Source: Armatimonadota bacterium
GTDB taxonomy: Bacteria > Sysuimicrobiota > Sysuimicrobiia > Sysuimicrobiales > JACQTN01
Assembly (NCBI GenBank): GCA_016210785.1
Contig: JACQTN010000019.1
Span: 1 to 13,221, forward strand
Direction: 5' to 3'
DNA: 13,221 nt
The translations under genes were made by a program, and so were the position numbers. The notes under the pieces were generated by a model, which made no database searches, had not been told where the DNA came from, and saw only the letters and a program-made list of their open reading frames with translations. Within the stretch, counting starts at the first letter, position 1, and the number at the start of each line of letters is the position of its first letter. Positions 1-13,221 of the stretch are shown in pieces.

Positions 1-925
1 CCTGCAGCCGGTCCACGGTCTCGCGCAGGGAAGCGGGATCCTCCACGTGCAGGACCACCGCGTCTTCCACGATCTTCTTGATCATACCCGACAGCGACGT
101 ACCGGGTCCCACTTCCACGAAGGCCCGGGCGCCCATGGCCGCCATGCGCCGCACCGACTCCTCCCAGCGCACGGGGCTGGCCACCTGGGTGATGAGGAAC
201 TCTCTCACGCGGCCTGCCTCCGTGACCGGCTCGGCGGTAGCGTTGGCCACCACGGGGATGCGCGGGTCCCGCAGCGTGATCCCAGTCAGTTCACCGGCCA
301 AGCGCAGCGCCGCGGGCTGCATGAGGGAAGTGTGGAAGGGTGCGCTCACCGCGAGCCTGACCACCCGCCGGGCCCCCCGCGCCCTGGCGGCCTGGGCCGC
401 CCGCTCCACCGCGGCACTGTCGCCGCCGATCACCACCTGGCCCGGCCCGTTGAAGCTAGACGGCTCCACGATGCCGGCGCCGGCGGCCTCCCGGCACGCC
501 GCGGCCACCCCTTCCGGGTCCAGCCCCAGCACGGCGGCCATGGCCGTGTCCCGCTCTGCCGCCGTCTCCTGCATGAAGCGGCCCCGCTTGCGCACCAGCA
601 CCACGGCGTCCTCGAACCGCATGGCGCCCGCAGCCACGAGCGCGGTGTACTCGCCCAGGCTCAGCCCCGCGGCCACGCCGGCGTCCACGCCGTGCTGGCG
701 CAGCGCGACCAGGCAGGCCACGCTGGCGGCCAGAATCGCCGGCTGGGTATTCTCCGTCTGGCGAAGCGCCTCCTCCGGTCCCGCCCGGCACAAGTGGAGA
801 AGATCCTCGCCCAGCGCGGCGCCGGCACGGCTGAATACCGCCCGCGCCGCGGGGACGGCGTCGGCCAGCGCCACGCCCATCCCCACGTACTGGGCGCCCT
901 GTCCGGGGAAGACCAGCGCGATCAC
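1..925 (-). CDS. fabD: Malonyl-CoA:ACP transacylase FabD (3' end cut by window edge)
   Basis: FabD moves the malonyl group from CoA to acyl carrier protein in the cytosol, supplying the extender unit for fatty acid synthesis. 308 residues are visible. Since the family is usually 305-320 residues, only a few C-terminal residues are missing. Visible motifs are FPGQGAQ at residues 6-12, the nucleophile Ser89 in GLSLGEY (the commoner form is GHSLGEY), and the catalytic His198 in APFHTSLM. The C-terminal EVGPGTSLSGMIKK block is also present. The chosen start is GTG at 925, with GAGG 5 nt upstream and a full AGGAGG 12 nt upstream. The gene begins 40 bp after fabH stops and reads the same way, so the two are probably cotranscribed. 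The Leu before the nucleophile also occurs in other FabD proteins and is not a sign of inactivity. Identity is secure. Confidence 0.96.
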   Translation of the reverse strand, partial: MIALVFPGQGAQYVGMGVALADAVPAARAVFSRAGAALGEDLLHLCRAGPEEALRQTENTQPAILAASVACLVALRQHGVDAGVAAGLSLGEYTALVAAGAMRFEDAVVLVRKRGRFMQETAAERDTAMAAVLGLDPEGVAAACREAAGAGIVEPSSFNGPGQVVIGGDSAAVERAAQAARARGARRVVRLAVSAPFHTSLMQPAALRLAGELTGITLRDPRIPVVANATAEPVTEAGRVREFLITQVASPVRWEESVRRMAAMGARAFVEVGPGTSLSGMIKKIVEDAVVLHVEDPASLRETVDRLQ

Positions 926-965
926 GGGGTCCTCAATCCTCCTGGTCGATCCGGGGACTCCGCCG

Positions 966-2012
966 TCACGGGCGCGGGGCGGACCGCGCCTTGGTCCACC
1001 GCAGCGCGCACGAGGCCCACGTGAGTCCGCCGCCGAACGCCACCAGCACCAGGACGTCCCCCGGCTGCTCCCGGCCCGCTTCCATCGCCTCGCTGAGCGC
1101 CACGGGCACGGAGGCAGAGGAGGTGTTGCCGTAGCGGTCGATGTTGATGATGAACTTCTCCAGGGGTTCGCCCAGGCGCTTGGCCGCCGCCTCGATGATC
1201 CGGATGTTGGCCTGATGCGGGACGTACCAGCGCACGGCCTCGCCGGTCAGGTTGGCCTGGCGCAGCACGGCCTCGATGGCGTCGGGGATGGCGCGGACCG
1301 CGAACTTGAACACCTCGCGCCCGTTCTGGTAGATGTAGTGCATGTCCCGTTCGATCGTCTCGTAGGAGGCGGGATGGCGCGACCCGCCGCCGCGGAGATT
1401 GAGCAGATCCCCGCGGCTGCCGTCGGCGCCGAGATGGAAGGACAGGAACCCCTCACCCGGCGGACACGGCTGCACCACCACCGCGCCGGCGCCGTCGCCG
1501 AACAGCACGCAGGTGCTGCGGTCCTTCCAGTTGGTGATCTTGGACAGCGTCTCCGCGCCGATGACCAACACGCGGTCCGCCATGCCGCTGCCCACATAGG
1601 CGTTGGCCTGGGCTAGGCCGTACACGAAGCTGCTGCAGGCGGCCATCAGGTCAAACGCACCCGCCCGCCGGGCGCCCAGGCGGTCCTGCACCCAGCAGGC
1701 GGTGGAGGGGAAGATCATATCGGGGGACGCGGTGCCCACGATGATGAGGTCGAGGTCATCCGGCGTGAGGCCGGCGTCGGCGAGCGCGGCGCGGGCGGCC
1801 TCGATAGCGAGGTCGGACGTCGCCTGATCGTCGCTCGCGATCCGGCGCTCCCGGATTCCGGTGCGCGTGACGATCCACTCATCCGACGTCTCCACCGCCG
1901 CTTCGAGCTGGTGGTTGGTCACCACCCGAGGCGGCGTGTAGTGTCCGATCCCGGTGATGGTCGCGCCCCGCGGCGCCGGACGGCCTGCTCCCTGCGCCCC
2001 CGAGGTGGTCAC
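966..2012 (-). CDS. fabH: Beta-ketoacyl-ACP synthase III FabH
   Basis: FabH condenses acetyl-CoA (or a branched acyl-CoA) with malonyl-ACP to start type II fatty acid synthesis. The predicted protein is 349 residues. The catalytic triad is visible: Cys126 in DLMAACSSFVYG, His266 in WYVPHQANIRII, and Asn296 in NIDRYGNTSSASVP. The thiolase-fold start ITGIGHYTPPRVVTN lies at about residues 19-33. The start is uncertain. GTG at 2012 gives a tail of about 18 residues before the conserved core, and I see no strong ribosome binding site. The frame stays open another 32 codons to a GTG at 2108, but that extension lies in intergenic repeat DNA (2041-2154) and is probably not native protein. fabD follows after 40 bp. 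Upstream, rpmF is separated from fabH by two tandem repeat units, and the plsX gene often found here is absent. Confidence 0.95.
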   Translation of the reverse strand: MTTSGAQGAGRPAPRGATITGIGHYTPPRVVTNHQLEAAVETSDEWIVTRTGIRERRIASDDQATSDLAIEAARAALADAGLTPDDLDLIIVGTASPDMIFPSTACWVQDRLGARRAGAFDLMAACSSFVYGLAQANAYVGSGMADRVLVIGAETLSKITNWKDRSTCVLFGDGAGAVVVQPCPPGEGFLSFHLGADGSRGDLLNLRGGGSRHPASYETIERDMHYIYQNGREVFKFAVRAIPDAIEAVLRQANLTGEAVRWYVPHQANIRIIEAAAKRLGEPLEKFIINIDRYGNTSSASVPVALSEAMEAGREQPGDVLVLVAFGGGLTWASCALRWTKARSAPRP

Positions 2013-2040
2013 CGCACCGCCCGCCCGATCGGTGGTCGCG

Positions 2041-2154
2041 GCACGTTCCACTCTCGTGCAAGGTGTATTCGTTGTCCCGCGCTCACCCACGCACGGTGCA
2101 CGTTCCACACTCGCGCAAGGCGTAATCGCTGTCCCGCGCTCACCGACGCACGGT
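2041..2154 (-). repeat. Two tandem 57-bp repeat units in the rpmF-fabH spacer
   Basis: Units at 2041-2097 and 2098-2154 are exactly 57 bp each and differ at 6 positions by hand count. On the minus strand each carries GGTGAGCGCGGGACA, then CCTTGC, then GTGGAACGTGC. Parts of the unit can fold: on the plus strand the second copy has CACCG-ACGCA-CGGTG, and the first has GCACG...CGTGC with a 9-nt loop. The array ends 3 bp from the rpmF stop codon. Because 57 is divisible by 3, the fabH frame runs open through both units. Related units occur in three other spacers of this window. Their function is unknown; a REP/BIME-like dispersed element is the closest category. Confidence 0.85.
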
Positions 2155-2157
2155 GCT

Positions 2158-2349
2158 TCACGACTTCTCCTCGGTCTCCTTGACGATGACCTGACGCCCG
2201 CCGTAGTACCCGCAGGCTTCGCAGACCCGATGGGGGATCATCAGCGCGTGGCATTGAGGACAGCTCACCATACCGGCCGCGCGCATCCGCCACCGGGATC
2301 GGCGGTGGCCCGTGCGGGCCTTGGAGCGACGTCGCTTCTGCAGTGCCAT
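2158..2349 (-). CDS. rpmF: 50S ribosomal protein L32, zinc-ribbon form
   Basis: L32 is a small protein of the large ribosomal subunit. The product is 63 residues and starts MALQKRRRSKARTGHRRSRW, a typical basic N-terminus for the family. Four cysteines (30, 33, 43, 46) form CPQC...CEAC within PHRVCEACGYY, so this is the zinc-binding version. The ATG at 2349 has AAAGGAG 8 nt upstream. It lies 20 bp after the DUF177 gene, a near-universal pairing, and shares that gene's strong promoter. The stop codon sits almost directly against the repeat pair that separates it from fabH. Confidence 0.96.
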   Translation of the reverse strand: MALQKRRRSKARTGHRRSRWRMRAAGMVSCPQCHALMIPHRVCEACGYYGGRQVIVKETEEKS

Positions 2350-2369
2350 GGCGAGAACTCCTTTCCGGC

Positions 2370-2897
2370 CTATGTGGAATCCGAGCGAAGCCTCTGCAGA
2401 GCCGCCAGCCGGGGATCGATTTCCCGGCCGGCGCACCCGCACGGTCCCGTGTTCAGGTTCGCTCCGCACCGCGGACACAGCCCGCGACAGTCCTCCGAGC
2501 ACTGCGGCACCATCGGCAGCTCCAGCAGGAGGTGCTGGCGGACCACCTCCGTCAGGTCCAGCGTCTTCCCCTCCCCCAGGGGGAAGACGAAATCCTCCTC
2601 CGTGAGCGCGACCTCCTGACCCACCGGGCGCTCCGGCGGCGCCATCCAGAACTGTTCGGTGATGCTGGCCGCGAGAGAGTGCTCGAAAGGTCGGAGGCAT
2701 TTGCCACACACGAGCGTCACCGTCGTGGTGACCGTACCCCGCAGGTCCAGGGTCTCGCCCAGGTGGGTCAGCGTCACCTGGCCGGTGACGGGCGCGGGGA
2801 ACGCGACGTCCTCCGTCTGCGACTCCACGCGCTCGTCGAAGGGAAGCGTCCGCGCCGTGCCCGACGCCGGCAGCAGCTCATCGACGACGACCTTCAC
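2370..2897 (-). CDS. DUF177 / YceD family protein
   Basis: A 175-residue member of the DUF177 (YceD) family, which is linked in the literature to 23S rRNA accumulation. Its biochemical activity is not settled. The N-terminal half is beta-rich (TGQVTLTHLGETLDLRGTV) and leads into CGKC at residues 64-67. The C-terminal part has a second cysteine cluster at residues 133-155, including CRGLCPRCGANLN, typical of family members in Bacillota and Actinobacteria. The start is GTG at 2897, with only a weak GGGTG upstream. The gene is the first after the strong promoter at 2972-3001 and directly precedes rpmF, the usual partner, which supports a role around the large subunit. Confidence 0.9.
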   Translation of the reverse strand: MKVVVDELLPASGTARTLPFDERVESQTEDVAFPAPVTGQVTLTHLGETLDLRGTVTTTVTLVCGKCLRPFEHSLAASITEQFWMAPPERPVGQEVALTEEDFVFPLGEGKTLDLTEVVRQHLLLELPMVPQCSEDCRGLCPRCGANLNTGPCGCAGREIDPRLAALQRLRSDST

Positions 2898-2941
2898 CGG
2901 GACACCCTGGCGGCTGTGATGCCGTCATATTGCCTGACGCA

Positions 2942-2956
2942 GCCCTCGCCGAGGGC
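2942..2956 (-). promoter_or_regulatory. Hairpin in the 5' leader of the DUF177-rpmF-fabH-fabD transcript
   Basis: The leader contains a perfect 6-bp stem with a 3-nt loop (GCCCTC-GGC-GAGGGC on the minus strand), about 10 nt after the predicted transcription start. The T run lies before the stem, not after it, so it does not look like an intrinsic terminator. It could protect the 5' end or bind a regulator. Confidence 0.4.
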
Positions 2957-2971
2957 GAAAAAGGCTATCCC

Positions 2972-3001
2972 ATTATATGGACAGGCGTTCGGCAATGTCA
3001 A
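2972..3001 (-). promoter_or_regulatory. Near-perfect sigma-70 promoter for DUF177-rpmF-fabH-fabD
   Basis: On the minus strand the -35 box TTGACA (3001-2996) and -10 box TATAAT (2977-2972) both match the consensus exactly, with an 18-bp spacer. The surrounding stretch is clearly richer in A+T than the rest of the window. The predicted start near 2964 gives a leader of about 67 nt before the GTG of the DUF177 gene. It is the strongest promoter-like sequence I see here, fitting a ribosomal protein and fatty acid operon. Confidence 0.88.
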
Positions 3002-3034
3002 GAAACCGGTGGCGCGCATGCCGCACCCCGGGCC

Positions 3035-3490
3035 TCACGGCGGCGTCTGGCGATCCAGCATCGCCTTGCCCTTGCGGATCGCGTCCAGGATGTCCTGCAC
3101 GCGCCCTTCCAGTTCCTCCAGCACCTCCCGCGCGTAGTCATCCGAGCCGTGCCGGATGGCGTCGGCCTCCGCGCGGCCTTCGTCCATCATGTGCGCCCGC
3201 TGGCGCTCCGCTTCCCTGGTGACGGCGTGTTCGCTCACCAGCCGGCGCGCGTAGGTCTGCGCCTCCAGCACGATCCGCCGCGCCTCGTCCTGCGCCTGCT
3301 GCAGCGTCCGCTCCGCCTCCTCCCGCAGGCGCGCCGCCTGCCGCAGATCCTCCGGGATCTTCTCCCGGATGGCCCGCACCAGTTGCGCCAGTTCCCTGTA
3401 GTCCGCGCTGCGGCGGTCCAGCAGCGAGAGGGCCGGGCGCCGGGTCACCAGAGTCTCCAGCCGGGTGAATAGCTCCACTAGAGAGTCCAT
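3035..3490 (-). CDS. Coiled-coil protein in the SepIVA/DivIVA-like position next to coaD
   Basis: The product is 151 residues. After a short N-terminal part (about 1-35, MDSLVELFTRLETLV) it is almost entirely charged helix. Residues 45-145 are rich in Glu, Arg, Ala and Gln with heptad-like spacing (REEAERTLQQAQDEARRIV), as in DivIVA-type or ATP synthase b-type coiled coils. I see no signal peptide and no membrane segment. The ATG at 3490 overlaps the end of coaD by 13 bp, so translation is probably coupled. In mycobacteria a longer coiled-coil protein, the septation factor SepIVA, sits beside the DUF177 gene, and similar unnamed proteins adjoin coaD in Bacillota. A role in division or cell-envelope organisation is inference from position and shape; no enzymatic motif is visible. 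Confidence 0.85.
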   Translation of the reverse strand: MDSLVELFTRLETLVTRRPALSLLDRRSADYRELAQLVRAIREKIPEDLRQAARLREEAERTLQQAQDEARRIVLEAQTYARRLVSEHAVTREAERQRAHMMDEGRAEADAIRHGSDDYAREVLEELEGRVQDILDAIRKGKAMLDRQTPP

Positions 3491-3981
3491 GGTCCGGACC
3501 CGCCTTTCTCAAACTTCCGCCGAAGGTGCGCGGCCACCCGGGCCGGCACCAGGCCCTCCACACCCCCGCCCAGGCGCACCACCTCCTTGATGAGGGTGGA
3601 GCTGAGAAAGGCCCACTCTGGCGAGGTCATCAAGAAGACGGTGTCCAGGTCGCCGGCCAGGTGCCGGTTCATCATGGCCATGCGGAGCTCATACTCGAAG
3701 TCGCCCATGGTCCGCAGCCCTTTGAGGATCGCCGACGCGCCGCACTGCCGGGCAAAGGCCACGGTGAGGCCGCTGTAGTCCACCACCCGCACATTCACCA
3801 TGCCTTCCGTCACTTCCCGCAGCATGGCCACCCGTTCCTCCGGTGTGAACAACATCTCCTTGCTTACCACGTGGCTGACCGCCACGGTCACGGAGGGGAA
3901 CATCTCCACCGCCCGGTTCACGATGTCCAGGTGGCCGTTGTGGACCGGATCGAAGCTGCCGGGATAGATGACCGTCTTCAC
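3478..3981 (-). CDS. coaD: Phosphopantetheine adenylyltransferase CoaD
   Basis: CoaD transfers AMP from ATP to 4'-phosphopantetheine, giving dephospho-CoA, the penultimate step of CoA synthesis. The product is 167 residues, the normal family length. The nucleotidyltransferase motif HNGH is at residues 14-17 within YPGSFDPVHNGHLD. KGLRTMGDFEYELRMAMMNR covers about residues 87-106, and the second nucleotide-binding motif appears as LSSTLIKEV near residue 127. The GTG start overlaps the rsmD stop by 4 bp, with AAGGAGG just upstream. The overlaps on both sides tie rsmD, coaD and the coiled-coil gene into one translationally coupled operon. Confidence 0.97.
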   Translation of the reverse strand: MKTVIYPGSFDPVHNGHLDIVNRAVEMFPSVTVAVSHVVSKEMLFTPEERVAMLREVTEGMVNVRVVDYSGLTVAFARQCGASAILKGLRTMGDFEYELRMAMMNRHLAGDLDTVFLMTSPEWAFLSSTLIKEVVRLGGGVEGLVPARVAAHLRRKFEKGGSGPWTL

Positions 3982-4538
3982 CGCGCCTCCTTCTCCCGCT
4001 CAAAGAGCCACAAGGCCGTCTCGCCGTAGCGGGCTTCCCGGATCATCACCAGGCCAGCGACTCGTTCGGGCGCGTCCCGCCAATGTCCTTCCGCGGCGAT
4101 CACCCCGCCCGGGGTCAGGAGATCGCATTCCGCCAGACGCCGCAGCGTCGCATCCACCAGGCCGCGGCCGTAGGGCGGATCGAGCATGATCAGGTCGAAG
4201 CGCCGCGCCGCCGCCGCCAGCGCGCCGATGGCGGACAGCGCGTCCCGCTGCCACACTTCCGCCGCCTCCTTGAGGCCTGCGCCGGCCAGGCTGCGGCGGA
4301 TCTCCTCCGCCATGCGCGGGTCACGCTCCACGAACACCGCGGAGGCGGCGCCCCGGTGGAGCGCTTCGAGACCAAGGGCGCCGGTGCCTGCGTAAAGGTC
4401 CAGCACCCTCGCTCCGGCCAGCCGCGCGGCCAGCACGTTGAACAAGGCGACGCGCACGCGGCCCGAGGTGGGCCGCATCCTTCCGCCGCGGCCGCTCCCC
4501 CCACGCCCGCCCCGCCCTCTGTCGGGATGCGTCCGCAT
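3978..4538 (-). CDS. rsmD: 16S rRNA (guanine-966-N2)-methyltransferase RsmD, unusual N-terminus
   Basis: RsmD methylates G966 of 16S rRNA using S-adenosylmethionine. The 186-residue product shows MRPTSGRVRVALFNVL (21-36), the SAM-binding LDLYAGTGALGLEAL (46-60) and the catalytic DPPY (120-123). Usual family members begin with an RVIAG..KGRRL segment before RPT..RVRE. Here that segment is replaced by an Arg/Gly-rich stretch (residues 7-20, GRGGRGGSGRGG). ATG at 4538 is preferred because GGAG lies 9 nt upstream; ATG at 4553 is possible but has no clear binding site. An in-frame TGA at about 4566-4568 rules out a longer native N-terminus in this frame. Either the N-terminus was remodelled or a frameshift lies just upstream. 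Confidence 0.93.
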   Translation of the reverse strand: MRTHPDRGRGGRGGSGRGGRMRPTSGRVRVALFNVLAARLAGARVLDLYAGTGALGLEALHRGAASAVFVERDPRMAEEIRRSLAGAGLKEAAEVWQRDALSAIGALAAAARRFDLIMLDPPYGRGLVDATLRRLAECDLLTPGGVIAAEGHWRDAPERVAGLVMIREARYGETALWLFEREKEAR

Positions 4539-4946
4539 CGGCAAACGCTCCATCCGGTGAGGCCTCGCTCACGTCCGGCTTCGCTCCGGGGCGGCCTCGC
4601 CGACCTATCTATGGCTCGCTTTCTGTCGTCTGCTCCTCTCTACGAGGAGTTCGCTGGTTTGGCACCGACACGTGCCACGTTTCTGCAACGTGCCCCAGTG
4701 TACCGCGCTCACCGAACTCACGGCGCCACGCACCTTCTGAGCGTTGCGAGGCCAAACGCGTCCTTCGGGCTCGAACAGGTCGCGCTCTTCTCTGACTCGC
4801 CAAGATAGGTGGTGCGCGCGCCCCGCGCTGCGTCGTGCCACATTCGCGCCGGCACCCACTCAGCGGCGCATCGCTCGGCCGCAGTCGCTCCGCCAGGACG
4901 TGACTCGCCTCCTTCCAAACCTAACGTAGACGTCAGCGGGTGAACG
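4539..4946. other. Noncoding spacer between recG and rsmD with several hairpins
   Basis: About 400 bp without a convincing gene. The short open frames here lack homology I can recognise and have poor starts. Plus-strand structures are CTCCTC-TCTAC-GAGGAG (4633-4649), GGCAC-CGACAC-GTGCC (4661-4676) and CACGTT-TCTGC-AACGTG (4676-4692). An inverted pair, ACCTATCTATGGC at 4603-4615 and GCCAAGATAGGT at 4799-4810, brackets about 208 bp. One copy of the dispersed repeat lies inside, at about 4668-4717. A stretch at 4836-4870 is vaguely similar to the repeat but too degenerate to call. It must hold the recG transcript end and the rsmD promoter, but I could not place either with confidence. Confidence 0.6.
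4668..4717 (-). repeat. Single copy of the dispersed spacer repeat upstream of rsmD
   Basis: On the minus strand this reads TTCGGTGAGCGCGGTACA, then a short variable part, then TTGC and finally GTGGCACGTG. These match the blocks of the units near fabH and thiX in the same order and at nearly the same spacing. It is more diverged than those copies. Confidence 0.7.
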
Positions 4947-7061
4947 CTAGCTGATCGCCGCCAGCTCCAGCCGGCCGCCGAACCGTCGCTGCACCGCGTC
5001 GCGCAGCGCACGCGACACCGGCTGCCGGAGTTCCGCGTCCTGGCGCAGGTAGTCCAGTGCCGCGCGCCGCGCCTCCTCCAGCAGCGGTAGATCTTTGATC
5101 GGATCGGCCACTCGGAAGTCGGGCAGGCCGTGCTGGCGCACGCCCAGCAGTTCCCCGGGCCCGCGCAGCGCCAGGTCCTCCTGGGCGATGGCGAACCCGT
5201 CCGTGGTGGCCGTCATGGTCCGGATGCGCCGCTCCGCCTCCTCGGTAGCAGGATCATCGATGAGGATGCAGTAGGAGCGTGCCGCGCCACGGCCGATGCG
5301 TCCGCGAAGCTGGTGCAGTTGGGCCAGCCCGAAGCGGCCGGCATCCTCGATGACCATCACCGTGGCGTTGGGGACGTCCACGCCCACCTCGATGACGGGC
5401 GTGGCCACCAGCACCGCGATCTCGCCGGCGCGGAAGCGTGCCATCACCTGCTCCTTGTCCTCCACGCGCATGCGGCCGTGGAGCAGGCCAAGCGAAACGC
5501 CGGTCAGCTCTCCGCGCGCCAAACTCTCGTGCAGTTCGGTGGCCGCCCGCGCGTCCACCTTCTCCGACTCCTCCACCAGCGGACACACCACGAAGATCTG
5601 CCGGCCCGCGGCCACCTCCTGCCGCACGAACTCGTACACTTTCGCCCGATCGGCCGGCCGGCGCCAGTGCGTCGACACCCGTCCCCGCCCTGCCGGCATC
5701 TCGTCCAGCACCGAGACATCCAGGTCGCCGTACAGGGTGAGGGCGAGCGTGCGCGGGATCGGCGTGGCGGTCATCACCAGGACGTCGGGCCCCGCGCCCT
5801 TCCGTCGCAACAGGGCACGCTGGGCGACGCCGAACTTGTGCTGCTCGTCGATCACGACGAGCCCCAGCCGGGCGAACGCGACCGCCTCCTGGATGAGGGC
5901 GTGGGTACCCACCACCACGTCGGCGTCCCCACGCTGGGCGGCGGCGCGCCCCGCGTCCCGGCCCGCCACATCCATCCCCCCGGTGAGCAGCACGACCCGC
6001 ACGCCCAGCGGGTCCAGCATCCGGCGGAAGGTCAGGTAGTGCTGGTCTGCCAGGATCTCTGTGGGCGCCATGACCGCCCCCTGGTAGCCACCCTGGACGC
6101 ACGTGACCAGCGCTGCGGCGGCCACCGCAGTCTTGCCCGATCCCACGTCGCCCTGCAGCAACCGGTTCATGGGGCGCGGGCCGAACATGTCGCCGTGCGT
6201 CTCGTCGATGACCCGGGCCTGTGCGCCCGTCAGGGCAAAGGGCAGCGACGCCCGCCACCGGTCCGTCAGGTCGCCGTCCCGCCGGTAGCGGATGGTGCGG
6301 GGCAGGCGCTCTACGGCGCGCCGGCGGATCAACACGCCGATCTGCAGGAGGAACAGTTCCTGGAAGGCCAGCCGGCGCCGGGATGCCTCCGCCTCGCCCT
6401 CCGCGCCGGGGAAGTGGACTTTCCACAGGGCGTCCCGGATGCCCATCAGGGCGTGTTGTGCGCGCACCGCCTCCGGCAGCATCTCGCTGACGGCGCCGGC
6501 GAACTCCTCCAGCGCCTCGCGGATGATGGTGCGCACCATCCGCGGCGTGAGTCCCTCCGTGGCCGGGTAGACCGGGACGATGCGCCCGGCGTGCATCGCC
6601 TCATCCTCGGGCTCCAGCACCTCCAGGTCGGGGCTCTGGACCTGCAGCTGGCTGCGCCACTGCTCGACCCGCCCCGTGAGCACCACCTGCGCGCCGCGCG
6701 AGAGCTGGCCGCGGAGGTATGGCTGGTTGAACCAGACGGCGATGACGACACCGGTGCGATCCGTGATGGCGGCTTTGATGACGCTGCGCACGGCTCGGCG
6801 AGGGCCGCCGCGGCGGCCGAAGGGCCGCTCCTCCCTCACGCCGCGGATCGTGCCCCGGATGGTGGCCACCGTACCGGGGGCCAGGTCGCCGATGGGGGTG
6901 ATGACGCGGCGATCGTCGTAGCGCGACGGCAGGTGGTGCAGGAGGTCTTCGACGGTGTGGATGCCCAGGCGGGCGAGTTGGGCCGCTCGCGCAGGCCCGA
7001 CGCCCCGGATGTGATCCACCGTGTGGTCCAGGGGCGGCCGCGCGATCCGGGAATCCGGCAT
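4947..7061 (-). CDS. recG: ATP-dependent DNA helicase RecG
   Basis: RecG is a double-stranded DNA translocase that reverses stalled forks and processes branched intermediates. The product is 704 residues, within family range. An N-terminal helix-hairpin-like part (DHIRGVGPARAAQLARLGI) leads into the wedge/OB region (about 60-150). The helicase core has Walker A GDVGSGKT (304-311), MAPTEILADQH, the DEQH box (405-408), MTATPIPRT (430-438) and IEVGVDVPNA. The RecG C-terminal helicase signature EDAGRFGLAQLHQLRGRIGR is also present. The start is placed at ATG 7061, where family similarity begins; no good ribosome binding site is visible, and GTG codons upstream are possible. The frame stays open to 7256, but the distal part reads through 27-bp repeats and is unlikely to be protein. 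The genes downstream (rsmD, coaD) read the same way after a 400-bp spacer. Confidence 0.96.
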   Translation of the reverse strand: MPDSRIARPPLDHTVDHIRGVGPARAAQLARLGIHTVEDLLHHLPSRYDDRRVITPIGDLAPGTVATIRGTIRGVREERPFGRRGGPRRAVRSVIKAAITDRTGVVIAVWFNQPYLRGQLSRGAQVVLTGRVEQWRSQLQVQSPDLEVLEPEDEAMHAGRIVPVYPATEGLTPRMVRTIIREALEEFAGAVSEMLPEAVRAQHALMGIRDALWKVHFPGAEGEAEASRRRLAFQELFLLQIGVLIRRRAVERLPRTIRYRRDGDLTDRWRASLPFALTGAQARVIDETHGDMFGPRPMNRLLQGDVGSGKTAVAAAALVTCVQGGYQGAVMAPTEILADQHYLTFRRMLDPLGVRVVLLTGGMDVAGRDAGRAAAQRGDADVVVGTHALIQEAVAFARLGLVVIDEQHKFGVAQRALLRRKGAGPDVLVMTATPIPRTLALTLYGDLDVSVLDEMPAGRGRVSTHWRRPADRAKVYEFVRQEVAAGRQIFVVCPLVEESEKVDARAATELHESLARGELTGVSLGLLHGRMRVEDKEQVMARFRAGEIAVLVATPVIEVGVDVPNATVMVIEDAGRFGLAQLHQLRGRIGRGAARSYCILIDDPATEEAERRIRTMTATTDGFAIAQEDLALRGPGELLGVRQHGLPDFRVADPIKDLPLLEEARRAALDYLRQDAELRQPVSRALRDAVQRRFGGRLELAAIS

Positions 7062-7106
7062 CACCGCGCTGTGATCCCGTGCGGACACGCTCCGCTCCAC
7101 CACATC

Positions 7107-7138
7107 CAGGGTACCCTGAAGGTCACAGCCCAATTCTA
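7107..7138 (-). promoter_or_regulatory. Possible recG promoter element with a 12-bp palindrome
   Basis: On the minus strand TAGAAT (7138-7133) resembles a -10 box, but I find no good -35 at 16-18 bp. Just downstream is the perfect 12-bp palindrome CAGGGTACCCTG (7107-7118), about 46 bp before the recG ATG. Its position just after a potential transcription start would suit an operator, though a chance palindrome cannot be excluded. Confidence 0.35.
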
Positions 7139-7179
7139 CGCGGCCTCCGGCACTCCTCTTTGTCGGAGAGGGAGGGCGC

Positions 7180-7344
7180 CGGCACGTTCCACTCCAGTGC
7201 GAAGTGCGGCACGTTCGACGCACGTGCAGGGCGCGGCACATTCCACGCATCTGCAACGCGCCTCACGCTGCCGCGCTCGCCGGAACCTGTTACGCTGCCC
7301 CAGGGCGGTTTGCTCTACCGCGATCACCGACGTCGCGGCGCCCC
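7180..7344 (-). repeat. Repeat cluster between recG and rpmB, including three exact-period 27-bp units
   Basis: Three consecutive units of exactly 27 bp lie at 7180-7206, 7207-7233 and 7234-7260. Each starts CGGCAC(G/A)TTC on the plus strand and has TGC near position 18-20. They correspond to the GTGGAACGTGCC half of the longer units found before fabH and thiX. At 7261-7284 the other half follows (CGGCGAGCGCGG on the minus strand). A second, more diverged full-length copy covers about 7285-7344 (GTCGGTGATCGCGGTA on the minus strand). The cluster sits in a divergent spacer, so simple downstream readthrough does not explain its location. Confidence 0.8.
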
Positions 7345-7373
7345 GGGAATTCGCTGTGTGAAGGGCCCGGGGC

Positions 7374-7406
7374 CCCCAACAAATCCGCCGCATGGATTTC
7401 TTGGGG
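7374..7406. repeat. 33-bp inverted repeat upstream of the rpmB promoter
   Basis: The plus strand reads CCCCAA-C-AAATCC, a 7-nt centre (7387-7393), then GGATTT-C-TTGGGG. This gives two 6-bp perfect arms on each side, interrupted by one C-C mismatch. The dyad lies about 54 bp before the rpmB -35 box. No T run follows on either strand, so it is not an ordinary intrinsic terminator. A protein-binding dyad or extruded hairpin is possible. The rest of 7062-7532 beyond the repeats and promoters shows nothing I can name. Confidence 0.6.
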
Positions 7407-7459
7407 TGGTCCGGGGTGGGGCTGAGCCGGTCCTGCGCATGACTCCCCAGACCAGTGGA

Positions 7460-7488
7460 TTGCGTGGCGCGGCGCGGCGTGTTAAGAT
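7460..7488 (+). promoter_or_regulatory. Sigma-70-type promoter of rpmB
   Basis: TTGCGT (7460-7465) and TAAGAT (7483-7488) are separated by exactly 17 bp and point toward rpmB. A start near 7495 would leave a leader of about 38 nt containing AAGGAGG. This is a local A+T-rich dip in a GC-rich setting, which supports the call. Confidence 0.72.
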
Positions 7489-7532
7489 ATGCGTGTTTTG
7501 CAAGGCCGCTCAGGCAAGGAGGCAGAAATCCG

Positions 7533-7724
7533 ATGGCCCGCCGTTGCGCGATCTGTGGCCGGGGCCCGTTGACCGGCTCGAACGTCAGCCACTCTAATCA
7601 GCGGACCAAGCGCCGCTTCATCCCCAACCTGCAGATGGTCAAGGCGCAAGTGCAGGGGAAGGTGAAGCGCGTGCGCGTCTGCACCAGTTGTCTCAGCGCG
7701 GGGAAGGTGACGCGCGTCGCGTGA
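7533..7724 (+). CDS. rpmB: 50S ribosomal protein L28, zinc-binding form
   Basis: L28 is a small protein of the large ribosomal subunit. The product is 63 residues and begins [29 protein letters not shown], a typical L28 start. Two Cys pairs, CAIC (5 and 8) and CTSC near the C-terminus, form a zinc ribbon. AAGGAGG sits 10 nt before the ATG, and its own promoter is visible upstream. It is the only plus-strand gene: divergent from recG and convergent with hslO, whose stop codon lies 12 bp away. In Actinobacteria, as I recall, rpmB also sits between thiL and recG, which supports ancestral linkage here. Confidence 0.97.
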
Positions 7725-7729
7725 GGAGC

Positions 7730-7744
7730 GCCGGCTCAGCCGGC
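7730..7744. terminator. Short GC hairpin between converging rpmB and hslO
   Basis: GCCGGC-TCA-GCCGGC forms a 6-bp stem with a 3-nt loop. The loop on the minus strand is the hslO stop codon TGA. The stem is symmetric and could act on both transcripts, but there is no real T run (ATCTTG on the plus side). It is a candidate bidirectional stop, not a clear intrinsic terminator. Confidence 0.35.
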
Positions 7745-8614
7745 ATCTTGTCCGTCGAGCATCTCTCGCAGTTCGGCGTCGCCCACCTCGTACCGCTCTC
7801 CACAGAACCGGCAGTGCACCTCGGCCCGCCCCTGCTCCGCCAGGATCTGGCGGACCTCCCGGGCGCCCAGGCCGAGGAGCACCCCCTTCACCTTATCCCG
7901 GCTGCAGCGGCACTGGAAGCGCACCGGCATCTCGTCTACGAACTGCAGTGCCAGGTCGCCGCATGCCTCCTGGAGGATGTCGGTGGGCCGCATCCCGTCG
8001 TTGACCAGCGTGGTGATGGCGGGCAGCGCCCGCGTGCGCCGGTCCAGGTACGCGATGACGTCGTCCGCGGTGCCCGGCAGCACCTGAATCAGCAGGCCGC
8101 CCGAGGCCAGCACGCGGCCGGAGGGGGCCACCAGCACGCCCAGCGCTACCGCGGACGGGACCTGCTCTGAGGACGCGAAGTAGTACGCCAGGTCCTCGCC
8201 GATCTCTCCCGAGCGCAGGGGCACGCTGCTGTGGTACGGATGGCGCAGGCCCATGTCCTTGGTGACGTGGAGGGTACCGCGGCCCACGGCCGCGCCGACG
8301 CTCAGCTTGCGCGCCGGCGTCGGCGGCAGGTCCACCTGAGGGTTGGCCACGTACCCCCGCACGCCCGCCTCTGCCGTGCTGTCGGCGATCAGGCCGCCCA
8401 GCGGGCCGTCGCCGATGATGCGCAGCGTCGCCGTGCTGCCCGCCTTCAGCGTGGCGCCGATGAGGACGGCGCCGGTGAGCCCGCGCCCCAGCGCTGCGGT
8501 GGCGGTGGGCAGCGTGTCGTGGCGGCGCCGGGCTTCCTCCACGGTGCCCGTGGTCACCACCGCCAGGGCTCGAGTCCGGCCATCCTGCGCCACCGCCCGC
8601 ACCAGCGTGTCCAT
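7736..8614 (-). CDS. hslO: Redox-regulated chaperone Hsp33 (HslO)
   Basis: Hsp33 is a cytosolic holdase chaperone switched on by oxidation of a zinc-bound cysteine centre. The product is 292 residues, the usual length. The N-terminal domain shows DTLPTATAALGRGLTGAVLIGATLK-like sequence. Near the C-terminus are the four zinc cysteines: 235 and 237 (CRC), 268 and 271 (CRFC). The start is placed at ATG 8614, where AGGTGA lies 8 nt upstream and partly covers the thiL stop. Longer in-frame GTG starts exist up to 8647 but add residues not typical of the family. It is the last gene of the thiamin operon, 8 bp after thiL. Confidence 0.95.
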   Translation of the reverse strand: MDTLVRAVAQDGRTRALAVVTTGTVEEARRRHDTLPTATAALGRGLTGAVLIGATLKAGSTATLRIIGDGPLGGLIADSTAEAGVRGYVANPQVDLPPTPARKLSVGAAVGRGTLHVTKDMGLRHPYHSSVPLRSGEIGEDLAYYFASSEQVPSAVALGVLVAPSGRVLASGGLLIQVLPGTADDVIAYLDRRTRALPAITTLVNDGMRPTDILQEACGDLALQFVDEMPVRFQCRCSRDKVKGVLLGLGAREVRQILAEQGRAEVHCRFCGERYEVGDAELREMLDGQDAG

Positions 8615-8622
8615 CGTCGCCT

Positions 8623-9651
8623 TCACCTGTGACGGAAGTGATCCCACCCGTGGGGTTCCAGCGGGCGCAGTGTCCCGCCCGGATCGCGCAGCGTCAGCCC
8701 TGCCGCCGCCTCCACGACCTCGCCGATGACGGTCGCGGCCGTGCCTTCCGCCTCCAGCATCCGGGCCAGCGCACCGGCCGCCGCCGGCGGCGCGGCCACC
8801 AGCAGCTCGTAGTCGTCCCCGGCGAACAGGGCAAGCGCCACCGGATCACGTCCGGCTGCCGCCGCCACCGCGCGGACCTCCGGCGAGACCGGCAGCCGGG
8901 CCACGTCCACGCGGGCGCCCACGCCGCTGGCCGCGCACAGGCGCCGGAGATCCGTGCCCAGGCCATCGGAGAGATCCATCATCGCGTGGGCCAGCCTGCT
9001 ACGCCCGATCGCCTGCCCCTCCCTCACGCGGGGGCGCGGCGTGAGGTATGCCCCCAGAAGCCGCTCCGCGCCGGCCCGCGCGCCCAGAGAAGGCTGGCGC
9101 ACGACCTCCAGGCCGGCGCCCGCGGCCCCCAGGTGCCCGGTGACCAGCAGCGCGTCGCCGGGCCGGGCCCCGGATCGGGTGAGGAGGTGCTCCGCGGCCA
9201 CGTCGCCGAGCAGGGTGAGGTCGATGACGGCCGGGCCGGGTGAGCGGGCCAGGTTGCCGCCCACGAGGGCCACGCCCGCGCCGTCTCCTTCCTCACGCAG
9301 CCCCGCGTAGAACTCCTGAAGCCACGCCGCGGGAAGGTCCGCCTGCAGCACCGCGGACACCAGCGCCCACCGTGGGGTCCCGCCCATGGCGGCGATGTCG
9401 CTCAGGTTGACGGCCAGCAGGCGCCGGCCGAGCTGCCGCGGCGCGATGGCGTCGGCGAGGAAGTGCACGCCTTCCACCTGGGCGTCGCACGTGGCCAGCA
9501 GGAGCTTCCCGCTCTCCGCGCGCAGCACCGCGGTGTCGTCCCCGATCCCCAGAACGACCTCCGGAGGCGGCGCGCCTACGACAGTCGCCAGGCGCGCCAG
9601 CAGCGCGTCCTCTCCCAGATCGCCGATGGTCTCACCGCCGGCGGGCCGCAT
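8623..9651 (-). CDS. thiL: Thiamin-monophosphate kinase ThiL
   Basis: ThiL phosphorylates thiamin monophosphate with ATP to give thiamin diphosphate, the active cofactor. The product is 342 residues, normal for the family. Motifs in order are GIGDDTAVL (35-43), CDAQVEGVHF (55-64), NLSDIAAMGGTP (82-93), DLSDGLGTDL (226-235) and AGDDYELL (277-284). One oddity is GGNLARSP at 131-138, where I would more often expect GGD; this may be lineage variation. The ATG at 9651 overlaps the thiE end by 20 bp, with GGAGG 6 nt upstream, so translation is likely coupled. Confidence 0.96.
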   Translation of the reverse strand: MRPAGGETIGDLGEDALLARLATVVGAPPPEVVLGIGDDTAVLRAESGKLLLATCDAQVEGVHFLADAIAPRQLGRRLLAVNLSDIAAMGGTPRWALVSAVLQADLPAAWLQEFYAGLREEGDGAGVALVGGNLARSPGPAVIDLTLLGDVAAEHLLTRSGARPGDALLVTGHLGAAGAGLEVVRQPSLGARAGAERLLGAYLTPRPRVREGQAIGRSRLAHAMMDLSDGLGTDLRRLCAASGVGARVDVARLPVSPEVRAVAAAAGRDPVALALFAGDDYELLVAAPPAAAGALARMLEAEGTAATVIGEVVEAAAGLTLRDPGGTLRPLEPHGWDHFRHR

Positions 9652-10258
9652 CCACCACCTCCCGCAGGCGCCGCGCGGCCGCGACGGGGTCCGGCGCCCC
9701 CGCCACCGCGGAGATCACTGCCACGCCGTCGGCGCCGGCCCGGATCGCCTCGGCGGCGTTCTCGATGGTGATGCCGCCGATCGCCACGACGGGCACCGAC
9801 ACGGCGCGCCTGACCGCGGCGAGCCTCGCGGACCCGATGGGCGCGCCGGCCTCGGGCTTGGTCGCCGTGGCGTAGACGCTGCCCACGCCCAGGTAGCTGG
9901 CGCCGTCGCGCACGGCGGCCAGTGCCTCCTCCGGCGAAGAGGCGCTGACCCCGACGATCTTTTCAGGCCCCATCAGCCGCCGGGCCAGGGCGACCGGCAT
10001 GTCGTCCTCGCCCACGTGCACGCCGTCCGCGTCCACCGCCAGCGCCACGTCCACACGGTCATTGACGATGAAGAGTACGCCGCGCCTGCGGGCGATCGCC
10101 CGCAGGCGGCCCGCCGCCTCGATCAACTGCCGCGTGGTCATCGCCTTCTCGCGGAACTGCAGTGCGGTGGCCCCACCCTCCACGGCACCCTCGGCCACCT
10201 CCTCGTGGGAACGTCCGCCCACGCGGCGGTCGGTGATCACGTACACGCTCAGGTCCAC
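9632..10258 (-). CDS. thiE: Thiamin phosphate synthase ThiE
   Basis: ThiE joins hydroxymethylpyrimidine diphosphate and hydroxyethylthiazole phosphate into thiamin monophosphate. The product is 208 residues, a TIM barrel of normal size. Family motifs are VYVITDR (5-11), ALQFREK (32-38), DGVHVGEDD (78-86), [13 protein letters not shown] (123-135) and AIGGI (159-163). The start is GTG at 10258, overlapping thiM by 10 bp, with GGGAG 7 nt upstream. It uses the ThiM product directly. Confidence 0.97.
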
Positions 10259-11085
10259 CGCATCTCTCCCTCGAGCACCGCCAGGCGTGCCCCGTTGGCC
10301 ACGTCATCCGGCGCCAGCGCATCCAGGGCGTCGAACAGCGCGGCGTGGAACGTTCCCGGGCCTGACGCCCGCGCCGCGGCCCGCTCCGCGGCCAGGCCGA
10401 AAGTAGCGAGGGCGGCCGCGGCGGCCACCAGGGCCGGCGTCCCCGCGGCGGCAAACGCCGCCACCGCGGCCGTGGCCATACAGCCGGCGCCGGTGATCCT
10501 GCGCAGCAACGGGTGGCCGTTGTCCACCGCCACCAGCGTCTCTCCATCGCTCACGTAGTCGCGAGCCCCGGTCATGGCCACCACGCCGCCGGTGCTCCGC
10601 GCCAGCGCGCGGACCACGGCGACCGGATCGGCCGGCCCCCCGGTGGCCTCGACGCCCCGCATCTGTGCGGACGCGCCGGCCAGCGCGGCGATCTCCGCCG
10701 GGTTGCCCCGCACGATCATCCCGGGGGCCGCCGCGAGCAGTCGCGCGGCCGTCTCGGTCCGCAGCACCGTGCCGCCCACGCCCACCGGGTCCATCACCAC
10801 CGGGATACCCCGCGCCGCCGCCGCGCCCGCGGCGCGAACCATGGCCTCCGCGCGCAGGGGGGTCAACGTGCCCAGGTTGCAGGCCAGGGCGTCGGCGCGA
10901 GCGGCGACTTCCTCCACCTCCTCCACGGCGGAGGCCATCACCGGCAGCGCGCCTAGCGCCAGGGTGGCGTTCGCCACGTCTCCGGACGTCACCTCGGTGG
11001 TGATGTGGTGCACCAGAGGCCGGGAACGGCGCAGCGCATCCAGCGCCGCCGCGCAGACCCGGGCCAGGGCGCGCTCCCCGCTCAC
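10249..11085 (-). CDS. thiM: Hydroxyethylthiazole kinase ThiM
   Basis: ThiM phosphorylates the thiazole alcohol recovered from thiamin breakdown, feeding ThiE. The product is 278 residues. Visible are the substrate segment HHITTEVTSGDVANATLALGALP (about 26-48), CNLGTL, DPVGVGG, RGNPAEI, NGHPLL and the active-site ITGAGC with Cys202. The family usually has ITN where this protein has ITT, a substitution in the substrate pocket region. The GTG start overlaps the thiY stop by 4 bp (GTGA). A longer open frame upstream to 11181 lies inside thiY and is not needed. Confidence 0.94.
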   Translation of the reverse strand: MSGERALARVCAAALDALRRSRPLVHHITTEVTSGDVANATLALGALPVMASAVEEVEEVAARADALACNLGTLTPLRAEAMVRAAGAAAARGIPVVMDPVGVGGTVLRTETAARLLAAAPGMIVRGNPAEIAALAGASAQMRGVEATGGPADPVAVVRALARSTGGVVAMTGARDYVSDGETLVAVDNGHPLLRRITGAGCMATAAVAAFAAAGTPALVAAAAALATFGLAAERAAARASGPGTFHAALFDALDALAPDDVANGARLAVLEGEMRWT

Positions 11086-12050
11086 GGCGCCGGGACGAAC
11101 CGGTTGGTGAACATGGCCTCCACCGGCGTCTTCCGCTTGATGATCCCGTGCGCGTGCAGGAAGTCCGCCAGCGCGGTCCACCGCGGCGCCGACTGGCGCT
11201 GGCCGCGGGCGTAGAACGGCAGGGTGGCCGCGTACCCGCGGCGGTTCAGGGTGTCGTTGAGCTTGGGATTGGCCGCCACGTACGCCTTCCAGGCATCGTC
11301 CTGGCTGGCCAGCGTGTGCCGGATCCCCTGGGTCAGGGCGCGTACGAAGCGCGCCACCGTCTCGGGGCGCTCCCGCACCACTCGCTCGCTCGCGATGATC
11401 ACCAGTTCATAGTAGTCGGGGACACCGTACTTTTCCACCTCGAACATGCCCACCTGGCGGCCCTGCAGCTCGATCTGGATGCGCTCGTAGTTCTTGTAGG
11501 CGCCCACCACCGCGTCCACCTTGCGGCCCAGCAGCGCCGGGGTCAGGTTGAAGCCCACGTTGACCATCCTGTAGTCGCCCTTCTTGAGACCCGCGCGCGC
11601 CGCGATCGCCACCAGCATCGCTTCCTCGAACCCCGCGACCGCGTACCCCACCGTCTTCCCGCGCAGGTCGGCCGGGTTGCCGATGCCCGACCCGCGCAGG
11701 AACATCACGGTCGTCAGCGGGTGGTCCACCAGCAGTCCTACCGTCACCACGGGCAGCCCCTCGGCCCGGGCGATGACCACGGCGGGCTGGTAGCTGATGG
11801 CCAGGTCCACCTTGCCCGCCGCCACCAGCTTGAGCGGATCGTTGGGATCGGCGGGCACCTGCACGGTCACGTCCACGCCCGCTGCCTTGAGGAATCCCCG
11901 CTGCAGCGCGGCGTAGACCGGCACGTGGTTGGGGTTGGGGAACCAGTCCAGCATGAAGGTCACGCGCGGCGCAGGGCCCGCCGCGCCGGGCGGCGCCGCC
12001 CCCAGCATCATCGCCAGCAGGACCACCACCGCGCCGATGCGCAGTCTCAT
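11082..12050 (-). CDS. thiY: Thiamin-precursor ABC transporter, substrate-binding protein (ThiY/NMT1-like)
   Basis: A 322-residue binding protein with an N-terminal signal peptide (about residues 1-24, RLRIGAVVVLLAMMLGAAPPGAA) and no lipobox cysteine. The mature part begins with LDWFPNPNHVPVYAALQRG (34-52), the signature of the ThiY/THI5 family that binds pyrimidine precursors of thiamin. It continues with GKVDLAISYQPAVVIARAEGLPVV and KVDAVVGAYKNYERIQIEL. The likely ligand is a hydroxymethyl- or formylaminopyrimidine, supported by thiM, thiE and thiL directly downstream. Taurine or nitrate-type ligands are less likely in this context. The ATG has a GGGGGAG-type site upstream. Confidence 0.9.
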   Translation of the reverse strand: MRLRIGAVVVLLAMMLGAAPPGAAGPAPRVTFMLDWFPNPNHVPVYAALQRGFLKAAGVDVTVQVPADPNDPLKLVAAGKVDLAISYQPAVVIARAEGLPVVTVGLLVDHPLTTVMFLRGSGIGNPADLRGKTVGYAVAGFEEAMLVAIAARAGLKKGDYRMVNVGFNLTPALLGRKVDAVVGAYKNYERIQIELQGRQVGMFEVEKYGVPDYYELVIIASERVVRERPETVARFVRALTQGIRHTLASQDDAWKAYVAANPKLNDTLNRRGYAATLPFYARGQRQSAPRWTALADFLHAHGIIKRKTPVEAMFTNRFVPAP

Positions 12051-12106
12051 GATGTCTCCCCCTCCTCCTCATCACCGGAAGTCTCCATCTCCACCGTGCC
12101 TCTGCC

Positions 12107-12131
12107 GCCCGCGGCCGCGCGCGCCGCGGGC
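12107..12131 (-). promoter_or_regulatory. Perfect 9-bp GC stem-loop between thiX and thiY
   Basis: GCCCGCGGC (12107-12115) and GCCGCGGGC (12123-12131) form a perfect 9-bp stem around a 7-nt loop, in the 93-bp gap between the thiX stop and thiY start. No T run follows on the minus strand. Within an operon such a stem could protect the thiY-distal mRNA and raise binding-protein expression; that is inference. Confidence 0.6.
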
Positions 12132-12143
12132 ACCTGCCTCACC

Positions 12144-12923
12144 TTACGCCCGCCGCCAGGGCAGCGCCAGCCACTCCACTGCCGAGACCAGCGCGAACAG
12201 GCCGACGGCCATCACCGACAGGTACAGGATCGCGGCAAAGATCAGGTCTACCCGCAGCTGCGCGTTGGCGTGGATCATGACGTAGCCGAGGCCTTCCTGC
12301 GATCCCACCCACTCCCCGATCACCGCGCCGATCACGCTCACCGCCACGCCCACCTTCGCGCCGGAGAAGATGAAGGGGAGCGCCCCGGGCACCCGCACCG
12401 TCCACAGAATGGTCCAGGGCGAGGCGCGCAGGATGCGCAGCAGGTTCACCATGTCCTCGTCCACGGCGCGAAGCCCGTCCACGGTGTTCACCACGATGGG
12501 AAAGAACACGATGAGCGCGGTCATGATCACCTTGGGCGCCAGCCCGTAGCCGAACCAGACGATGAGCAGCGGCGCGATGGCGAAGACCGGCACGGTCTGG
12601 GAGGCCACGATGAGCGGGTACAGCGTCTTCTCCAGCGTGGGCGAGTGGAAGATGGCAAAGGCCAGCGCGATCCCCACCGCGGCGGCCACGAGAAAGCCGA
12701 GCCCCACCTCCATGAGCGTCACCCCGGCGTCCCGCCACAGCAGCGGGTACTCCTGGAGGATGGCGCGGGCAACGCGCGACGGCGCCGGCAGGATGTACGG
12801 CGGGATGGCAAAGCCCCGGACCGCGGCCTCCCACGCCGCGGCCAGCAGTGCCAGCAGCCCCATGGCAGGGAAAAAGCGCCCCTCGCCCACCCAGGCAGAA
12901 ACGCGTCCGGGAAAAACGCGCAT
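12144..12923 (-). CDS. thiX: Thiamin-precursor ABC transporter, permease (ThiX-like)
   Basis: A 259-residue inner membrane protein of the nitrate/sulfonate/thiamin-precursor permease family. Six hydrophobic segments are visible at about 17-35, 72-92, 103-124, 131-146, 185-205 and 227-247. The EAA-type coupling loop (DEDMVNLLRILRASPWTILW...VPGALPFIFSG) lies at about 155-187 and would contact the ATPase. The start is ATG at 12923 with GGGG about 6 nt and AGGAG about 13 nt upstream. The frame stays open to a GTG at 12998, but that extension reads into repeat DNA. It is placed between the ATPase and binding-protein genes. The thiamin assignment rests on ThiY and the downstream thi genes. Confidence 0.9.
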   Translation of the reverse strand: MRVFPGRVSAWVGEGRFFPAMGLLALLAAAWEAAVRGFAIPPYILPAPSRVARAILQEYPLLWRDAGVTLMEVGLGFLVAAAVGIALAFAIFHSPTLEKTLYPLIVASQTVPVFAIAPLLIVWFGYGLAPKVIMTALIVFFPIVVNTVDGLRAVDEDMVNLLRILRASPWTILWTVRVPGALPFIFSGAKVGVAVSVIGAVIGEWVGSQEGLGYVMIHANAQLRVDLIFAAILYLSVMAVGLFALVSAVEWLALPWRRA

Positions 12924-12949
12924 CGCGATCCCCGACTCCTCCCTCACCC

Positions 12950-13072
12950 GGCTCGTTCCACTTCCGGCAAGGCGCAACGCGACACCGCGCTCACCCACGT
13001 ACCGGCGCCCGGCGCGTTCAACATTCCGGCAAGGCGCCTTGTTCTACCGCGCTCGCCGACTCGGCGGCGCCC
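12950..13072 (-). repeat. Two tandem ~61-bp repeat units between thiZ and thiX
   Basis: Units at 12950-13010 and 13011-13072 share, on the minus strand, GGGCGCCG, then G(T/C)GAGCGCGGT, then GCGCCTTGCCGGAA and GTxGAACG(A/C)GCC. They are the longest and clearest members of the family seen in four spacers. The second unit holds a perfect 12-bp palindrome CAAGGCGCCTTG at 13030-13041. It also overlaps the 3' end of thiZ, so the last roughly 16 codons and the stop of that gene are repeat sequence. Confidence 0.85.
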
Positions 13073-13221
13073 CCGGCGGGAGAGGGGTGAGAGGTATCCT
13101 CACCGGCATGGCTGAACGCCTCCGGCATCTCCTGCTGGATCAGCGCCAGCAGCCGGCTCTTCAGGGCGACCAGACCGGTGTCGGCGGCGCGCCGCGGCCG
13201 CGGCAGCGGCACGTCCAGGAC
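13018..13221 (-). CDS. thiZ: ABC transporter ATP-binding protein, C-terminal end only (ThiZ-like)
   Basis: The last 67 codons of a gene running off the right edge. The visible start VLDVPLPRPRRAADTGLVALKSRLLALIQQE is typical of the C-terminal end of nitrate/sulfonate/thiamin-type ATPases, where DLPRPR follows the nucleotide-binding domain. No catalytic motif is in view. The final stretch (AESASAVEQGALPEC) is encoded by repeat DNA and is probably a recent, nonconserved tail. The neighbouring permease and binding protein support the assignment; the operon promoter and any TPP riboswitch would lie beyond this window. Confidence 0.8.
   Translation of the reverse strand, partial: VLDVPLPRPRRAADTGLVALKSRLLALIQQEMPEAFSHAGEDTSHPSPAGGAAESASAVEQGALPEC

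Follow-up and report, generated by a model that had tools for sequence, protein, structure and literature searches.

Elements built of hairpins nested in one another are known from the mitochondria of fungi, as double-hairpin elements and GC clusters. In bacteria, the GTAG- and CGTC-tagged repetitive extragenic palindromes (REPs) and bacterial interspersed mosaic elements (BIMEs) are short, high-copy and mostly intergenic, and have been recorded inside genes and within palindromes of A. variabilis, T. roseum and H. neapolitanus (Di Nocera et al. 2013, PMC3733652). They are palindromic units of 20-40 bp that leave GTAG or CGTC as an unpaired stem end, and their pairs lie mostly in opposite orientation. 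Rickettsia palindromic elements (RPEs) encode a conserved peptide; they insert in frame into conserved protein genes (PMC10969869, PMC3733652). Here we describe a repeat system from an Armatimonadota bacterium (assembly GCA_016210785.1), starting from a 13,221-nt stretch of contig JACQTN010000019.1 (positions 1 to 13,221, hereafter the window). It comprises a core unit of ~61 nt and a larger two-hairpin element, which we call H. Many of the units are passengers in H, which escaped the preliminary description of this DNA, made from its letters alone.

The core unit has the consensus GCGCCGTGAGTtCGGTGAGCGCGGTAGAAtGGaGCACCTTGCAcgaACGTgGAACGTGCCG. A profile built from genome copies, the window's own units among them, recovered seven window units (E 3e-14 to 2e-5), every one on the minus strand, and the spacers and block order first reported for them proved correct. 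The 3.73-Mb genome, 72% complete, is split into 616 contigs, and the family is present in it far beyond chance. The exact sequence GGTGAGCGCGG occurs 176 times (81 forward, 95 reverse), compared with 4 for the reversed pattern (3 and 1). The 26-base unit pattern CGCCGTGAGTnCGGTGAGCGCGGTAG, with up to three mismatches, occurs 150 times in this genome, with none in 385 other genomes and none in the control. We fetched 121 contigs (922 kb), mostly chosen for carrying repeats, with 20 taken regardless of hits (104 kb readable). The profile found 206 units in this set and none in the same sequence reversed. Seven of the 206 fall in those 20 unselected contigs, and extrapolating from these suggests a genome total of ~250 units; extrapolating through the 11-mer GGTGAGCGCGG (98 exact occurrences in the fetched set) suggests ~370. 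These copies bear out a dispersed, tandem-prone family whose blocks are conserved around a variable inner stretch. Clustered regularly interspaced short palindromic repeats were set aside by eye because the variable stretch, of 8-12 nt, belongs to the unit itself; no search for cas genes was made. A further motif near some units, GGTGCCAAACCAGCG, gave 61 matches with three mismatches against 47 in the reversed control and is not established.

Among the genomes searched, the unit is found in this one only. A 14-base piece of it matches 76 times in this genome and not at all in 42 genomes of the same order; it has one match in each of 2 of 18 more distant genomes, where by eye the rest of the unit is absent. 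A scan of viral contigs with a single exact pattern did not find the unit, nor was it found at 80 fetched RecG loci from other organisms. The nearest named relatives of RecG come from metagenome-assembled genomes labelled Armatimonadota (61% identity) and Bacillota (57%). Rfam gave no match to the window up to E 1, and at nine loci it gave one tRNA, outside the elements. The family looks unreported; the open-licence literature, searched by general terms, did not yield it, which is weak evidence.

Units lie in tightly oriented clusters. All 101 pairs of adjacent units less than 150 bp apart share one direction, with spacings mostly of 40-80 bp. The single orientation noted at the outset thus holds for the window and within clusters and fails genome-wide; since both strands are used across the genome, it is a property of clusters. 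Gene calls from a home-made codon-usage model, in which coding regions fill 84.7% of the sequence, place 98 of 105 clusters outside called coding regions (67 between genes, 31 without a called gene on one side, at contig ends) and seven inside. The initial statement that units are confined to intergenic stretches or just overrun a gene end was therefore nearly right. Clusters have no supported fixed orientation to genes: for the 67 between genes, all arrangements of the upstream and downstream genes relative to the cluster occur (++ 32, -- 19, +- 10, -+ 6). Divergent-gene spacers hold only 6 of these 67, though they make up ~26 of 113 kb of intergenic sequence, a scarcity that fits promoter avoidance. 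One contig carries a tandem run of six units (L039, contig 17, ~1226-1578), four of them 61 bp apart, with CTCAGAAGCTGAG-like palindromes at their junctions; by eye, the run immediately precedes a reading frame and follows a promoter-like stretch.

The seven genic clusters (four sense, three antisense) lie in frames identified through Pfam as MeaB, DinB, PhzF, PdxA, signal peptidase S26, 6-pyruvoyl tetrahydropterin synthase and a thioredoxin-like protein. In MeaB the units coincide with a 58-residue in-frame insert that is absent from all 11 homologues in a 12-protein alignment, which used 11 of 119 other listed homologues. At the unit, PhzF and PdxA exceed solved relatives by ~24-25 residues (one alignment each). 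In DinB, the pterin synthase, S26 and the thioredoxin-like protein, units lie towards one protein end; at L070:7147-8571, five units make up nearly 100 residues of the C-terminal part of the DNA polymerase IV (DinB) frame. Because a codon-usage caller favours in-frame insertions over broken genes, we make no claim of a preference for keeping frame.

The preliminary description had expected a structured or protein-bound element of REP/BIME type. A consensus fold of 103 non-redundant units (61 columns) is empty, and mutual information across units shows weak spots only. Among named stems, a single spot of two pairs shows an excess: pairing is 91.7% versus 87.5, doubly changed cells number 5 versus 1.2, and no shuffle out of 500 reached this. 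A scan took in 32 four-pair stems with pairing of 75% or more, and two of them rise weakly above shuffles. The unit is thus without a well-supported stem; we rejected a hairpin within it on these four analyses, and the expectation of structure is not supported. Membership in the REP/BIME class is likewise unsupported. The unit is longer than REPs, and a palindrome like theirs is not supported in it. Its GTAG, at consensus columns 24-27 of 61 (GCGGTAG), lies inside the unit and adjoins no well-supported stem, whereas in REPs it is a stem end. Its pairs are exclusively head-to-tail, unlike the mostly opposite pairs of REPs, and no REP-associated tyrosine transposase (RAYT) was found in the 72% complete genome. 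Since the units differ from REPs in both stem and pair orientation, we consider the unit, on balance, a short parasitic repeat belonging to no described family that could be tested here.

Reading outward from unit clusters, we found a second dispersed repeat, H, of ~110-210 bp without inserts. It opens with a 5′ hairpin, CATGCGCAGGnCCGGCTnnGCCGnGnCCGAGCATC, and closes either with a 12-bp hairpin followed by AACCTTnnnGGCTAG or, in a shorter form that we call type 1, with TCGGAAGGGGGAGGG...CCCTCCCCCTCCGAG. The 5′ hairpin pattern occurs 88 times in the genome, so that H has at least 88 copies, with none in the control; the main 3′ hairpin pattern gave 105 matches against 2 in the control. Elsewhere in the order, the 5′ hairpin occurs twice in one genome (G007) and once in another (G034), both of another family, and in none of the other 40; no more turned up in a wider set of 147 genomes. 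In that other family the pattern of the 34-base 5′ hairpin is matched without any mismatch, which points to recent horizontal spread or constraint.

Both stems of H are maintained through compensatory changes. In the 5′ hairpin, 98.2% of cells are paired and 23 are doubly changed (38 copies); in the 12-bp 3′ hairpin, the values are 95.5% and 29 (44 copies), with one pair often broken (12 of 44). In neither case were any of 500 shuffles as high. The pattern used to pick these copies itself contains the stem sequence and thereby biases the sample towards paired cells; doubly changed cells at open or mismatched positions are the stronger evidence. All 78 H copies placed are intergenic; 27 lack a called gene on one side, and the 51 between genes occur in every arrangement (++ 17, -- 22, +- 7, -+ 5). 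By eye, type-1 copies L324, L328 and L329 stop a few bases short of a start codon, and type-1 copy L300 (G007) runs into the apparent start of a transporter permease.

The relation between the two repeats is clearest where filled and empty copies of H stand side by side. We inspected 76 copies in the fetched contigs, 54 with both ends and 22 without a 3′ end in reach. Among the two-ended copies, 26 hold no unit by a fuzzy pattern that diverged units could escape (length 104-273), and 28 hold at least one (length 167-500). The three H copies in two genomes of the other family are unit-free, as are five type-1 copies in this genome; the other-family copies are likewise type 1. By eye, units enter H at three places: the GTCGCGGGT/GG step, the next hairpin and the type-1 3′ hairpin. 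Outside H, they sit between CCCCTCTCCC-type palindrome arms and, in one case, in a TCGACAGGCTCAGGAC palindrome (by eye), and mosaic spacers carry several interleaved motifs.

Two other inserts also occur within H. I1 (TTCCCACGATGTGTCGGTATCGGCGCTGCGAGTTGAAC...) occupies the 5′ hairpin loop in L060, L084, L095, L216 and others (30 matches, none in the reversed control). I2, strongly palindromic, reads TGACCCgCCTGAAATnTC...GAnATTTCAGGnGGGTCA and variants (by eye) and lies mostly in hairpin loops, as in H copies L050, L224, L061, L065, L048 and L073. Its left arm gave 45 matches against none in the reversed control, 29 of them no more than 600 bp from the 5′ end of an H copy.

In the window, all the features given here read on the minus strand. 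From open reading frame (ORF) translations, its genes are presumably fabD, fabH, rpmF, coaD, rsmD, recG, rpmB, hslO, thiamine genes and a transporter. Between rpmF and fabH lies a tandem pair, whose first unit (2098..2155, E 6.1e-8) begins at the end of the rpmF frame (stop near 2158 in the ORF list) and whose second follows at 2039..2098 (E 1.2e-9). The best copy (4667..4726, E 3.2e-14) stands in the long rsmD-recG spacer, in which the stretches 4555-4660 and 4740-4950 lie outside called genes and have no unit-profile match. Further on are a unit at 7234..7285 (E 2.8e-8), a diverged one at 7288..7341 (E 1.8e-5) and, read by eye at 7181..7235, two half units, the GTGCGTCGAACGTGCC and GAGTGGAACGTGCC ends, in keeping with the extra half units initially reported. 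Just outside this cluster, 7163..7178 (CGCCCTCCCTCTCCGA) resembles by eye the type-1 3′ arm of other copies (GCGCCCTCCCCCTCCGAG), and 7426..7441 matches the start of the H 5′ hairpin (CATGCGCAGGACCGGC) exactly; the usual 3′ side of that hairpin is not seen here. Lying between these two, the cluster at 7179-7341 looks like a nested H copy. The last two units (12950..13008, E 1.4e-6; 13010..13070, E 1.2e-10) are enclosed, by eye, by CCCCTCTCCC-type arms at 13071..13093 and, as partner CCGGGTGAGGGAGGAG, at ~12936-12951. Similar arms flank units elsewhere, for example at L076, L080 and L294 (by eye).

Together, these observations lead us to favour a non-autonomous, nested repeat system, its mover enzyme not found and its range so far one lineage. 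H would be a transposon-like element moved in trans by some enzyme. Units would have entered H, and other G-rich or palindromic spacers, after H existed, and would then have been carried along by H and multiplied by tandem duplication; occasional insertions into genes would have survived where the frame was kept. We infer movement from how the repeats are dispersed, from H copies standing both empty and filled, and from units inserted within genes. Three far pairs of 5′ and 3′ ends in the fetched contigs are candidates for a longer, autonomous H. A bolder version, which we regard as doubtful, is a so far undescribed type of nested DNA parasite, whose ~60-nt stemless unit, with no known transposase, travels in a covarying two-hairpin element but also settles by itself, either in palindromic or G-rich spacers or within genes in frame. 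It would owe its spread to a class of enzyme that has not been connected with such repeats before.

Several results weigh against this picture of a mobile, nested system. Neither a Y1 transposase (Y1_Tnp, PF01797; other transposase families were not searched) nor a reverse transcriptase (PF00078) was found in the 72% complete genome, and we set aside a reverse-transcriptase route of spread on that result. No target-site duplication is shown for H. CTAG is enriched near both ends, at 12 of 56 left and 34 of 55 right ends by fuzzy patterns that diverged copies escape, against <1% of intergenic stretches; it is commoner on the right, and the four bases at the two ends often differ when copies are compared by eye. 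Beforehand, we had expected units to insert generally at hairpin tips. A joined-flank test of 82 clusters was negative: cross-junction pairs numbered 8.9 against 10.2 in GC-matched controls at 44 non-H sites (p 0.92), 9.2 against 10.3 at 32 H sites (p 0.86) and 12.3 against 10.0 at six CTCAGAA sites (p 0.18). Flank pairing energy was -28.2 against -27.4 (sd 0.5) when flanks were shuffled, within the range of 200 shuffles. We rejected that general rule and limit the nesting claim to empty versus filled H copies. Finally, the assembly is fragmented and the samples searched held no second genome of the same family. A phage or plasmid origin was also set aside, as two exact patterns went unmatched in viral contigs and one H copy in plasmids and phages.

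An alternative to which we give the same low standing as the bolder version above is that H copies are small structured RNAs or RNA control elements kept for function, with the units as expansion segments of that RNA. In its favour, both hairpins covary, the exact 34-base match in another family is unexpected for neutral spacer DNA, and by eye three type-1 copies end just before a start codon. Against it, H and the units occur in all gene orientations, H has at least 88 copies here against 0-2 in other genomes searched, Rfam has no match, and the unit lacks a well-supported stem and also occurs away from H and within genes.

Recombination alone, in which tandem arrays would spread through slippage and through exchange resembling gene conversion among spacers rich in repeats, seems to us slightly less plausible still. 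It would account for the strict head-to-tail order, the spacings of mostly 40-80 bp and the interleaved motifs of mosaic spacers, but units in unrelated genes (MeaB, PhzF, PdxA) and in seemingly unrelated palindromes need jumps without shared sequence. Least probable is a REP/BIME family moved by a RAYT transposase: the units are short, dispersed, mostly intergenic and contain GTAG, and REPs inside palindromes and genes are on record (PMC3733652), yet the unit lacks a well-supported stem and PF01797 was not found in the genome, which is 72% complete. Y1_Tnp is carried by 12 of 43 genomes of the order, and none of 20 Y1_Tnp loci fetched from relatives has the H 5′ hairpin. In one of these 20 loci, a 15-base stretch of the type-1 3′ arm is matched with two mismatches.

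The nested, non-autonomous system that we favour also differs from the other known repeats. With RPEs it shares the hallmark of in-frame insertion into conserved genes (MeaB, PhzF, PdxA), though only 7 of 105 clusters are genic; units are inserted both sense and antisense, and RPEs belong to another group of bacteria. The miniature inverted-repeat transposable elements of prokaryotes (PMC10969869) are like H in being 100-300 bp, dispersed and intergenic, but by eye the ends of H have only CTAG in common, instead of terminal inverted repeats of greater length, and a target-site duplication was not established. Insertion sequences targeting REPs (PMC1525189) are alike in that a mobile repeat lands in another repeat; the present insert is a unit of ~60 nt. 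The units resemble REPs in being high-copy as well. The nesting of hairpins recalls, in description, that in fungal mitochondria, which are organelle genomes.

To our knowledge, small bacterial repeats are usually studied family by family. Here one genome holds unit-free and unit-filled H side by side, and another family holds H unit-free, so that an order of events, the host element first and the units later, can be proposed and tested. The units within MeaB, PhzF and PdxA offer, in addition, a natural test of how proteins tolerate such inserts.

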